Assembly: GCF_000720175.1 (NCBI RefSeq)
Contig: NZ_JOIX01000056.1
Coordinates: 11,859-75,858, forward strand
Length of the DNA stretch: 64,000 nucleotides
Direction of reading: 5' to 3'
Source: Streptomyces sp. NRRL S-337
Lineage (GTDB): Bacteria > Actinomycetota > Actinomycetes > Streptomycetales > Streptomycetaceae
This document shows positions 8,030 through 63,549 of this stretch, in pieces. The first letter of the stretch is position 1. Each line of letters starts with the position of its first letter. A program made the translations under genes and the position numbers. The notes beneath the pieces are model-generated. The model saw only the letters and a list, made by a program, of their open reading frames with translations, was not told the origin of the DNA and ran no database searches.

Positions 8030-8103
8030 TGGAGCGGGTGACGGGAATCGAACCCGCGCTCTGAGCTTGGGAAGCTCATGTTCTACCATTAAACTACACC
8101 CGC
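8030..8103 (-). tRNA. tRNA-Gly(CCC)
   Basis: A cloverleaf reads on the minus strand: acceptor GCGGGTG pairing with CACCCGC, a D-loop with the usual GG (AATGGTA), an anticodon stem TGAGC/GCTCA around loop TTCCCAA (anticodon CCC), T-loop TCGATTC in a standard CGGGT..CCCG context, discriminator T and an encoded CCA. It has 74 nt including CCA. All invariant positions are present, in contrast to the glycine tRNA at 62492. Confidence 0.95.
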
Positions 8104-40211: not shown

Positions 40212-41849
40212 TCAGCCGATGTCGCGCCGGCGGAACCCGGCCAGGCCGGCGGCGAGGAAGACGGCGGAGAGCGCGAGCAGCCAGACGAACGGGGCGGCGG
40301 TGGCGTGGGTGCCCGGGAGCTTGGGCAGGTGGCCGTAGGGCGAGAGGTCCATGGCCCACTGGGGGAGCCTCAGCGACGGGCCGATCCAGCCGAGCGCCAG
40401 GCAGCCCCCGACCACCGCCCACACGGCCGTGGTGGCCCGGGGCAGCAGCCCGAAGGCCAGCACCGCCAGGCCGGTGAGCGTCCAGACTGCCGGCACCTGG
40501 GCGAGCGCGGCGGCCAGCACCGGCCCCACCCGGCCGGCGTCGCCGACCGAGATGCCGTACGAGATGCCGAGCGCCAACCCGCCGAAGCCGAGGACGACGA
40601 CCGTGCCGGCGTAGGCGACGGCCAGGTGGCCGGCGGCCCAGCGGAGCCGGCCCACCGCGCCGGCCAGCACCGGTTCGGCCCGGTCGGCGGTCTCCTCGCC
40701 GCGCAGCCGGAGCACCGCACCGGCCGCGTAGATCGCGGCGACCATGCCGAGCATGCCGACCATCGTGGCCAGGAAGGCGTCGGTCAGCCGCGCCTGCCCG
40801 CCCATCCGCTCGAAGATCTCGCGGGTCCGCTGGTTGCCGCCGACCATGTCGGACGCGCCCTTCGCGATCCCGCCGAAGACCGCGCCGGCGCACACGTAAC
40901 CGAGCGTCCAGCCGCCGAGGGTCGTCCGCTGCAGCCGCCAGGCCAGGCCGAACGGCCCGGCCAGCGAGCGCGGGGCCCGGGCCGGACCGGGCCGGGCCGG
41001 CAGGAAGCTCATGCCGAGGTCGCGGCGGGCGGTGAGCGCGTAGGCGGCGGCCACGGTGAGCGCGGTGCCCGCCAGGAAGAGCAGCAGCGCCCCCCAGCGC
41101 TCGTCGGCGTACGCCCGCAGGTTCTCCGCCCAACCGAGCGGCGCGGCCCAGGTGAGCGGGGAGCCGGCGGTGGCGTCGGCGGCATCGCCCGCGCCGCGCA
41201 GCGCGAAGGCGAGGCCGAGCACCGCGCCGGTCAGCCCCTTCGCCATCCGGGCGCTCTCGGTGAGCTGCGCGGCGATGGCGGCCAGACCGGCGAACAGCAT
41301 GCCGGTGCCGCCGATGGCGAGCCCGAGGGCCAGCGAACCGGCGGCCGGCCGACCGGACCGGGCGAGCCCCGCCGCGATCAGCACGACGAGCACGGCGTTG
41401 GCGAGCAGCGCCGCCAGCAGGGCCGCGGTCAGCGGCGCCCGACGGCCCACCATCGCGGCGGACAGCAGCTCCTGACGGCCCGTCTCCTCCTCCTCACGGG
41501 TGTGCCGCACGACGATCAGCAGGCTCATCACCGCGGCCAGCACCGCCCCGAACCCGGCCATCCGCCAGGCGATCAGGCCGCCGAGGGAGTCGCTGAAGAC
41601 GGGGCCGTACAGCGCGCGCATCGAGCCGTTGGTGGTCATCGAGCCGGCCAGTTGGGCGCGCTCGGCGGCGGTGCCGTAGAGCGCTTCGAAGGACGAGCCC
41701 AGGCTCGCCACGACCAGGCCGAGGCCGAGCACCCAGGCCGGGATCATCACCCGGTCGCGGCGCAGCGCGAGCCGCAACAGGACGCCGGTACCGGCCAGTT
41801 GGCGGGAGCGGGCGGTGCCGGCGGGCACCGCGGCGGCCACCGCGGTCAT
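40212..41849 (-). CDS. ABC-2 type exporter permease
   Basis: The 545-residue protein has about 12 membrane helices in two similar halves (for example [41 protein letters not shown] in the first and [24 protein letters not shown] in the second), each with the [14 protein letters not shown] coupling motif of antibiotic-exporter permeases. It is encoded after its ATPase with an ATGA overlap. It likely exports a hydrophobic compound. A divergent regulator shares the upstream region. Confidence 0.9.
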
Positions 41850-60875: not shown

Positions 60876-61775
60876 GTGTCCGGTTTTGTAGAAAAGCCTG
60901 AGCCCGTGGAGGTCCCGGGGCTCACCCACCTCCACACCGGCAAGGTGCGCGACCTCTACCAGAACGCCGCCGGTGAGCTGATCATGGTCGCCAGCGACCG
61001 CATGTCCGCCTACGACTGGGTGCTGCCCAGCAAGATCCCCGACAAGGGCCGGGTGCTCACCCAGCTGTCCCTGTGGTGGTTCGACCAGCTCTCCGACCTG
61101 GCCGCCGACCACGTGCTGTCCACCGAGCTCCCGCCCGGCGCCCCGGCCGACTGGGCGGGCCGCACCCTGGTCTGCAAGTCGCTGCGGATGGTCCCCGTCG
61201 AGTGCGTGGCCCGCGGCTACCTCGCCGGCTCCGGCCTCGTCGAATACCGCAAGACCCGTACGGTCTGCGGTCTGGCGCTCCCCGAGGGCCTCGACGACGG
61301 CTCCGAGCTCCCCGCGCCGATCTTCACCCCCGCGACCAAGGCCGCGGTCGGCGACCACGACGAGAACGTCTCCTACGAGGAGGTCGCTCGCCAGGTCGGC
61401 GCCGAGACCGCCGCCCATCTCCGCCAGCTGACCCTGGGCCTCTACGCCCGGGCCCGCGACATCGCCCGCGAACGCGGACTGATCCTGGCGGACACCAAGT
61501 TCGAGTTCGGCTTCGACGGCGACACCCTCACCCTTGCCGACGAGGTCCTCACCCCGGACTCCTCCCGCTACTGGCCCGCCGACCAGTGGCAGCCCGGCCG
61601 CCCCCAGCCGTCCTTCGACAAGCAGTACGTCCGCGACTGGCTGACCTCGCCCGCCTCGGGCTGGGACCGCGCCGGCGAACAGCCGCCGCCCGCCCTCCCG
61701 CAGGAAGTCATCGAGCGCACCCGCGCCAAGTACATCGAGGCGTACGAGCGCCTCACCGGCCTGAGCTGGTCGTAA
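60876..61775 (+). CDS. purC: SAICAR synthetase
   Basis: The 299-residue protein starts at GTG 60876 behind GCGGAGGAAG. It has LHTGKVRDLYQNAAGELIMVASDRMSAYD, KSLRMVPVECVARGYLAGSGLVEY, the FTPATKAAVGDHDENVSYEE segment and LILADTKFEFGFDGDTLTLADEVLTPDSSRYWP. It condenses CAIR with aspartate in purine synthesis. It converges with three tRNA genes. Confidence 0.97.
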   Translation: MSGFVEKPEPVEVPGLTHLHTGKVRDLYQNAAGELIMVASDRMSAYDWVLPSKIPDKGRVLTQLSLWWFDQLSDLAADHVLSTELPPGAPADWAGRTLVCKSLRMVPVECVARGYLAGSGLVEYRKTRTVCGLALPEGLDDGSELPAPIFTPATKAAVGDHDENVSYEEVARQVGAETAAHLRQLTLGLYARARDIARERGLILADTKFEFGFDGDTLTLADEVLTPDSSRYWPADQWQPGRPQPSFDKQYVRDWLTSPASGWDRAGEQPPPALPQEVIERTRAKYIEAYERLTGLSWS

Positions 61776-61845: not shown

Positions 61846-61921
61846 TGGAGCGGACGACGAGGCTCGAACTCGCGACCTCAACCTTGGCAAGGTTGCGCTC
61901 TACCAACTGAGCTACGTCCGC
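61846..61921 (-). tRNA. tRNA-Gly(GCC), copy 1
   Basis: The cloverleaf has acceptor GCGGACG/CGTCCGC, D-loop AGTTGGTA with GG, anticodon arm CAACC/GGTTG around TTGCCAA (anticodon GCC), T-loop TTCGAGC and encoded CCA: 76 nt with all invariant bases. Confidence 0.95.
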
Positions 61922-62344: not shown

Positions 62345-62417
62345 AGCGGACGACGAGGCTCGAACTCGCGACCTCAACCTTGGCAAGGTTGCGCTCTACC
62401 AACTGAGCTACGTCCGC
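62345..62417 (-). tRNA. tRNA-Gly(GCC), copy 2
   Basis: The 73-nt sequence is identical to copy 1 through the discriminator base, but CCA is not encoded (the genomic 3' end reads TCAGA). Anticodon GCC. Confidence 0.95.
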
Positions 62418-62491: not shown

Positions 62492-62563
62492 AGCGGGTGA
62501 CAGGGATTGCACACTGCGCCTCCCCCTTGGAAAGGGGGCGCTCTACTACTGAGCTACACCCGC
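62492..62563 (-). tRNA. tRNA-Gly(UCC) with altered D- and T-loops (possible non-translational tRNA)
   Basis: The acceptor GCGGGTG/CACCCGC and anticodon arm CCCCC/GGGGG around TTTCCAA (anticodon TCC) are regular and the D-stem GCTC/GAGC is intact. The D-loop reads AGTAGTA, where G18 is replaced by A. The T-loop reads TGCAATC, where the TTC (T54-psi55-C56) becomes TGC; so both partners of the 18-55 contact are changed. The T-stem CAGTG/CCTGT forms few pairs. CCA is not encoded. The G55 change recalls staphylococcal peptidoglycan glycine tRNAs (GUGC in place of GTpsiC). It may supply glycine to the cell-wall bridge, or be a decaying gene. It lies 74 bp upstream of copy 2 and probably shares its transcript. 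Confidence 0.8.
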
Positions 62564-62682
62564 GTGACTCCTCGGGGCCCGGCCTTTCGGCCTCGCCCCT
62601 CGGCGTGCTCCAGACTCTAGCTGATCAGTAGGGGTGCTGTGCAAGTCGGCTGCGCCCGGGCCGGCGGACCCCGGCAAGTCGG

Positions 62683-63003
62683 TTAGTGGTTCGCCGCGTT
62701 GAAGGCCTCGTAGACCTTCTTGGGGATCCGGCCGCGCGGCGGGACGTCCATCTGGTGCGAGCGGGCCCAGGCACGGACGGCGGCCGGGTCGGGGGTTACG
62801 GCGGTCCGGGTGTAGGCCTTGCCGGACCTGGCCCGCTTGCGGCCGGCCTCGACGAAGGGAGCGAGGGCGCCGCGCAGTTTCTTCGCATTGGCGGGATTGA
62901 GGTCGATCTCGTACGACTTCCCGTCCAATCCGAAGGTGACCGTCTCTGCGGCTTCTCCTCCGTCGATGTCATCGGAGAGCGTTACTACTACGCGCTGCGC
63001 CAC
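62683..63003 (-). CDS. lsrL: Lsr2-family nucleoid protein (LsrL-like)
   Basis: The 106-residue protein has the N-terminal dimerisation domain MAQRVVVTLSDDIDGGEAAETVTFGLDGKSYEIDL and a C-terminal DNA-binding part with AVRAWARSHQMDVPPRGRIPKKVYEAF. The RGR tripeptide contacts the minor groove of AT-rich DNA in Lsr2. As in S. coelicolor, where the paralogue LsrL lies beside purS (from memory), it sits between tRNA-Gly genes and purS. It silences AT-rich, often foreign, DNA. Confidence 0.9.
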   Translation of the reverse strand: MAQRVVVTLSDDIDGGEAAETVTFGLDGKSYEIDLNPANAKKLRGALAPFVEAGRKRARSGKAYTRTAVTPDPAAVRAWARSHQMDVPPRGRIPKKVYEAFNAANH

Positions 63004-63303
63004 GGATATCGGTCCTTTCGTGGAGCGACCCCGTGTTGACGTGGGGTGATGCTCCGGATCCGGCTGATTGGGATCAATGCTTTTTCATTTGTACAGCGAT
63101 GGGCATTGCATTGTGAAGCCCAGTTAATTTCGTCAGCGTGTCTTCCCGCAATCCGGCCTCCGGATCTTTTCGAGGATTTTCCCTTGGGGGCACTCCGCCC
63201 GATACCGCACCGTGATCGGGCAGGCAGGATATCTATGCGCGTAGATTTTCGAACACGGTACTGTGAGGACACCGCCTTACGCACCACACCACCGGGAGTG
63301 CCA
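63004..63303. other. AT-rich divergent promoter region between lsrL and purS
   Basis: No gene is supported. The region is unusually AT-rich for this chromosome (TTTTTCATTTG near 63081, TTAATTTCG near 63124, GATTTTCG near 63244). It holds promoters for the divergent lsrL-like and purS genes and would be a natural binding site for the Lsr2-type protein. AAG/GAG-type ribosome site CGGGAG lies before the purS GTG. Confidence 0.6.
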
Positions 63304-63549
63304 GTGGCACGCGTCGTAGTCGACGTCATGCTCAAGCCGGAGATCCTCGACCCGCAGGGGCAGGCGGTGCAGCGCGCACTGCCTCGTCTGGGTTTCGAAG
63401 GGATCGCCGATGTCCGTCAGGGCAAGCGATTCGAACTAGAGGTGGAGGGACCGGTCGATGACGCCGCCCTCGCCCGGGTCCACGAGATGGCCGGGACGTT
63501 CCTCGCCAACACCGTCATCGAAGACTTCACCGTGCGGGTCGAGTCATGA
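63304..63549 (+). CDS. purS: FGAM synthase subunit PurS
   Basis: The 81-residue protein starts at GTG 63304: [40 protein letters not shown], then [19 protein letters not shown], the whole PurS fold. It forms the FGAM synthase complex with PurQ and PurL. Its stop overlaps the purQ ATG (ATGA). Confidence 0.95.

Follow-up and report, generated by a model that had tools for sequence, protein, structure and literature searches.

A conserved variant tRNA-Gly(UCC) of Streptomycetaceae with a changed elbow and T-arm, apparently withdrawn from translation

What is a glycine tRNA for when its D-loop and T-loop depart from those of its isoacceptors in the same genome? The question is raised by a gene of Streptomyces sp. 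NRRL S-337 that lies in a 64,000-nucleotide stretch of contig NZ_JOIX01000056.1, referred to here as the window. An initial annotation of the window recorded an odd tRNA-Gly(UCC) with TGC in the T-loop and AG in the D-loop, likened it to the cell wall glycine tRNAs of staphylococci, and suggested that it could be specialized for wall synthesis. GUGC at positions 53-56 is the motif of staphylococcal wall tRNA-Gly, and the staphylococcal non-proteinogenic tRNA-Gly were reportedly described by Giannouli et al. in 2009. We read A18 and G55 directly in the gene and found the original observation to be real and stronger than first stated. The gene and its surroundings comprise the following features.

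62563..62492 (-), variant tRNA-Gly(UCC) gene, 72 nt, 3' CCA not encoded (RF00005, ARAGORN, genus-wide conservation)
62544..62550 (-), D-loop AGUAGUA, with A18 in place of G18 and G19 retained (direct reading)
62529..62531 (-), anticodon UCC (ARAGORN, RF00005, direct reading)
62500..62517 (-), T-arm, 18 nt, with a bulged U at 62513 between pairs 52-62 and 53-61
62505-62511 (-), T-loop UGCAAUC, in which G55 replaces U55
62345..62417 (-), normal tRNA-Gly(GCC) (ARAGORN, RF00005)
61849..61921 (-), normal tRNA-Gly(GCC) (ARAGORN, RF00005)
8033..8103 (-), normal tRNA-Gly(CCC), used for comparison (ARAGORN, RF00005)
62683..63003 (-), lsr2 (PF11774, PF23359), constant neighbor of the variant gene
63046..63549 (+), purS (PF02700), start codon putative
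60876..61775 (+), purC (PF01259)

Covariance-model scoring, proposed as a check in the initial annotation, placed the cloverleaf over threshold, with an RF00005 match at 62563..62492 (-) that reaches 54.9 bits (gathering score 29) and stays below the scores of the neighboring tRNAs. ARAGORN likewise called a tRNA-Gly(tcc) at 62492..62563 (-). The acceptor, D and anticodon stems are intact, as first described and as the aligned genes bear out, and U73 (the discriminator), C2-G71 and the UCC anticodon are retained; A58 is present, and G19 and C56 could still pair. The T-stem had been called poorly paired, which was mistaken: it consists of five pairs (G49-U65, C50-G64, A51-U63, G52-C62 and G53-C61) and an additional U that separates 52 from 53, in a conserved register. 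The variant thus shares its cloverleaf, acceptor stem, U73 and anticodon with the ordinary bacterial tRNA-Gly(UCC) of RF00005 and differs from it by the bulged, 18-nt T-arm, A18, G55 and A51-U63. Compared with the normal UCC and CCC tRNAs of its own genome, it has A18 for G18, G55 for U55, and A51-U63 where both have G51-C63. A covariance model of the variant (R1) scored it at 104 bits and those two normal tRNAs at 66, the window's gene being itself among the sequences used to build R1. The minimum-energy fold of the single sequence is not a cloverleaf, which is also the case for the normal UCC and GCC tRNAs and is therefore uninformative. The two adjoining tRNA-Gly(GCC) and the distant tRNA-Gly(CCC) of the first description were all recovered, and there are no wall genes among the variant's neighbors. 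Elsewhere in the window, ARAGORN reported a 92-nt tRNA-Gly(acc) at 40619-40710 (+) that had no Rfam support at the gathering threshold and is probably a false positive of GC-rich DNA.

A count of other tRNA-Gly(UCC) genes returned a canonical one on another contig of the same genome (G000:C83:13893; 71.6 bits, also called by ARAGORN). The variant is therefore not the sole UCC reader, and decoding should not need it.

Conservation of the locus was then assessed across the genus. A BLAST search with the gene and its flanks found a match in 121 of 121 sampled Streptomyces genomes, the window's own counted; the odd D-loop, T-loop and T-arm were present in all 50 genomes read first (loci L051-L100), and sequence from only some of the other 71 was read later. 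Two or three tandem variant copies occur in some genomes, and lsr2 lies next to it at every one of the 118 loci L051-L168, some of which represent the same genome twice. A copy scan yielded 183 distinct copies. It required a 5' GC, TTCCA in place, T53, C55, A57 and C60 (gene numbering), a 3' GCT and pairing at six of the seven acceptor positions, and these columns accordingly provide no independent evidence; residues 18-19, 55, 49-65, 51-63 and 32-38 were free of such constraint. Majority identity was 0.93 in tRNA columns, some of them imposed by the scan, and 0.48 in the flanks (181 copies, two having too little flank).

Positions 18 and 55 are normally in contact within the tRNA elbow. Among the 183 copies, residues 18-19 and 54-56 took just two joint forms: AG goes with UGC in 177 and GG with UUC in 6, and no mixed forms occur. 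The parts of the elbow thus appear to have changed together. A51-U63 is present in every copy (183/183). Position pair 49-65 is G-U, which is listed as a strong EF-Tu pair, in 172 copies and A-U in the other 11, and the bulged base lies one pair lower in a single copy. Positions 32 and 38 always form a Watson-Crick combination (C-G in 95, U-A in 88), both sides changing together; C32-G38 is, to our knowledge, unusual in elongator tRNAs. In 24 aligned genes (23 distinct), 31 cells carried a change in both members of a pair, where shuffles averaged 10.0, and the covariation score exceeded that of all 500 shuffles. Two of five pair-count measures were no higher than in shuffles: pairs with a double change numbered 5 against 4.0, with 106 of 500 shuffles reaching 5, and further pair types numbered 6 against 9.0, a count reached by all 500.

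The distribution of the variant was followed through a family sample of 61 genomes from 17 genera. In 49 of them R1 found a match of at least 86 bits, other listed tRNAs scoring 73 or less. These matches fall into two grades. The six genomes read from two genera (g2 and g5) have the bulged T-stem with canonical loops (GG and UUC), and a seventh genome in this intermediate range, G155, was assigned by its similar score only; the remaining 42 carry the full variant. As g2 and g5 branch outside the remaining genera in a midpoint-rooted PurC tree, the simplest history, if that rooting is right, would be that the bulge and A51-U63 came first and the joint change at 18 and 55 followed. Position 49 is also A in eight of nine Streptacidiphilus (g3) genomes and in the single g10 genome.

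No variant was found in the other 12 family genomes, namely three of genus g11, eight of genus g14 and G146. The absence in G146 suggests an assembly gap, since it also lacks the two tRNA-Gly(GCC) that its relative G135 has next to the gene, and this genome was set aside. Genus g14 is Kitasatospora, the PurC of G133 being 100% identical to that on NZ_LISX01000001. A scan of named genomes with a g14 PurC gave 565 confirmed matches, of which the best 80 were kept. Of these loci, 21 fall in the Kitasatospora clade of the PurC tree, and the variant was present in none of them; 19 reach lsr2 (0/19), so the interval is covered. It was present in 56 of the 59 other named loci among these 80, and the three without it do not reach lsr2. 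In g11 it was missing from all three genomes, two of which were examined at the locus. Two ordinary tRNA-Gly(GCC) occupy the place beside lsr2 in five g11 and g14 loci. In Kitasatospora and g11, the Y RNA-like family YrlA gave sub-threshold matches (33 bits, gathering score 69) that extend over two tRNA-Gly(GCC) in tandem (L233 6181-6310, L234 6160-6301 and L235 1198-1331), likely an effect of its tRNA-like domain.

Beyond the family, a class sample of 345 genomes was searched, consisting of 33 from the same genus and 312 others. R1 and a T-loop pattern for GUGC-type tRNA-Gly(UCC) each found the variant in all 33. R1 returned no variant-like tRNA in the 312 genomes outside the family, with E capped at 1e-15 and no more than 14 candidates scored per genome, filters strict enough for a much diverged relative to escape. 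The pattern matched in 3 of the 312, against 4 of 345 genomes for a reversed-pattern control; none of the three looks like a tRNA, and chance probably accounts for them.

How far, then, does the staphylococcal likeness extend? The comparison was made from review descriptions. Both systems have an extra tRNA-Gly(UCC) beside normal isoacceptors (a redundancy established here for the window's genome only) with changed D- and T-loops, and in both it can be present more than once: S. aureus has three such isoacceptors, and some streptomycetes carry as many as three copies in tandem. UGC follows G53 in the 177 copies noted above, which matches the staphylococcal motif. In the excerpts consulted, two reviews attribute features of weak EF-Tu binding to three tRNA-Gly of S. 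aureus (PMC4052509, PMC8007984); A51-U63 and A49-U65 are listed among the features consistent with it (PMC4052509, section 7). The first of these pairs is common to both systems, and both T-stem changes listed there occur together in the g3 and g10 copies with A49; elsewhere G49-U65 prevails. G18G19 is replaced by UU or CU in S. aureus according to the same section, whereas A18G19 or, in six copies, GG is found here, and a bulged T-stem U goes unmentioned for S. aureus in those excerpts. The retained G19 and the prevalence of G49-U65 leave the likeness first proposed incomplete. The staphylococcal class is further marked by efficient charging by GlyRS with weak EF-Tu binding and by the use of its glycine for wall bridges by Fem ligases; on the last of these points the indirect evidence for the variant, set out below, is mixed. 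Because G19 is retained, we have not filed the variant as a member of the staphylococcal class; it is better described as a tRNA that seems to have been taken out of translation. An independent origin is suggested by the intermediate form of two genera, together with the lack of such a tRNA among the hits in the 312 class genomes outside the family.

We tentatively favor, at a confidence not far below even, a Streptomycetaceae-specific, charging-competent tRNA-Gly(UCC) that binds EF-Tu poorly and is reserved for non-ribosomal glycine transfer, with FemX as its likeliest user. The variant would have a promoter to itself and would be a substrate of the ordinary glycyl-tRNA synthetase, and the re-engineered T-arm and elbow would make it a poor EF-Tu ligand. 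Its Gly-tRNA would for that reason escape the ribosome and form a reserved pool, the likeliest consumer being a single FemX-type ligase that may add glycine to the diaminopimelate of the wall precursor. That the variant acts largely outside translation is, in our judgment, probable; that FemX is its main user is a more tentative proposition, somewhat short of an even chance.

EF-Tu contacts part of the T-arm, which is where changes of the variant fall, and this together with the normal UCC tRNA of the genome and the C32-G38 copies argues against the most serious rival, namely that the variant is a translation tRNA whose altered elbow and bulged T-stem are either tolerated or an adaptation, for instance to slow or stage-specific decoding of GGA and GGG. 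The intact acceptor, D and anticodon stems and anticodon, the possible G19-C56 pair, A58 and the intermediate genera with canonical loops are all consistent with such a role, as is a divergent second EF-Tu that might serve it. This protein scored 509-581 bits in the family sample, compared with 722-739 for the main EF-Tu (in the window's genome, 561.9 bits at G000:C132:4799-5959 and 735.9 bits at G000:C20:63774-64961). It is encoded in 31 of 42 full-variant genomes, none of the seven in the intermediate range (six of them read) and one of 11 that clearly lack the variant, G146, which has it, being left out of these counts. Given phylogenetic confounding and 12 exceptions among 60 genomes, we treat the association as a lead only, and the 11 full-variant genomes without the divergent EF-Tu count against this rival, which we regard as possible but doubtful. 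In an improbable scheme, a second, Streptomycetaceae class of tRNA-Gly of independent origin, with a new elbow (A18 facing G55) and bulged T-stem, would split Gly-tRNA into translation and reserved pools, and the divergent EF-Tu, over-represented in these genomes, might help to sort them.

The preferred reading, a reserved glycine donor, leads to the question of its user. A single FemAB-family gene is present in the window's genome. Its product, of 372 aa, is similar to lipid II:glycine glycyltransferase and to solved FemX structures; by comparison with the FemX/VanK glycyl ligases of Streptomyces coelicolor (PMC4052509, in the part consulted), this single protein could use the variant. FemAB distribution does not track the tRNA. 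FemAB genes occur in 60 of the 61 family genomes, and the 12 that lack the variant are among these; the sole genome without a match (G141, a 410-contig assembly) carries the variant; five Kitasatospora FemX are 75-78% identical to that of the window's genome. Among 137 class genomes outside the family, 65 have FemAB and none has a variant-like score. The presence of FemX therefore fails to explain where the variant is present or absent. Mycelial muropeptides of Kitasatospora viridifaciens carry glycine linked to diaminopimelate (PMC8092295, Table 1), this species standing for its clade as its own genome was outside the tRNA search. Since FemAB persists in genomes without the variant and glycine is found in that wall, FemX very probably works without the variant, which would at most raise or insulate its supply. 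The interpretation first suggested thus has partial support, from conservation, redundancy for decoding in this genome, the retained U73, C2-G71 and anticodon, and A51-U63. Its link to the wall is not supported, as absences that do not follow FemAB speak against it; a wall role is plausible but unproven.

Losses that do not follow FemX are what would be expected if another enzyme, acting in lipid, natural-product or protein modification, were the main user of a non-ribosomal glycine donor that was lost in Kitasatospora and g11. This alternative points to no particular genus-conserved enzyme, and the presence of the variant in every sampled Streptomyces genome suits a core process; we consider it unlikely.

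The reserved-donor reading supposes transcription from the gene's own promoter, and the upstream region contains one candidate element.

62614..62619 (-), TAGAGT, -10-like element, 50 nt upstream of the mature 5' end

Exact TAGAGT was found upstream of 75 of 181 copies, against 0.6 in shuffles, most commonly about 50 nt from the gene, and a TANNNT box lies 15-75 nt upstream in 160 of 181, against 27.8 in shuffles. A plain sigma-70 consensus scan of the window gave no promoter-like site at this element. Instead of carrying an amino acid, the RNA might also be regulatory or act as a decoy, for example as T-box ligand, fragment source or integration site; the roughly 50 nt between box and tRNA might accord with this, and tRNA genes are frequent integration sites. 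The glycine-charging determinants C2-G71, U73, C35 and C36 are nonetheless retained, no T-box was detected at the gathering level in the window, and a search for a mobile-element origin gave no plasmid match and a single weak phage tRNA-Gly match, which makes such a role very unlikely. A decaying pseudogene or sequencing artefact, to which the low Rfam score and the ARAGORN calls in only 60 of 181 copies might point, is ruled out: all same-genus genomes that were read share these odd residues, and the stems show compensatory changes within diverged flanks.

ARAGORN misses the variant in the other 121 of the 181 copies, and pipelines based on it may leave this tRNA unannotated, which may help to explain why no streptomycete counterpart was described in the open-access titles and beginnings of abstracts searched. 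For S. lividans, 65 tRNAs with transcript evidence are counted, and not listed one by one, in the excerpts of PMC8079986 consulted.

If the reserved-donor reading is right, the main antibiotic-producing genus would have, among its core features, a tRNA kept apart from translation, and the staphylococcal wall tRNAs would have a convergent parallel in a low-risk organism that is amenable to genetics. The Kitasatospora losses and the intermediate form offer natural comparisons, and the diversion of aminoacyl-tRNAs from EF-Tu would become directly testable.
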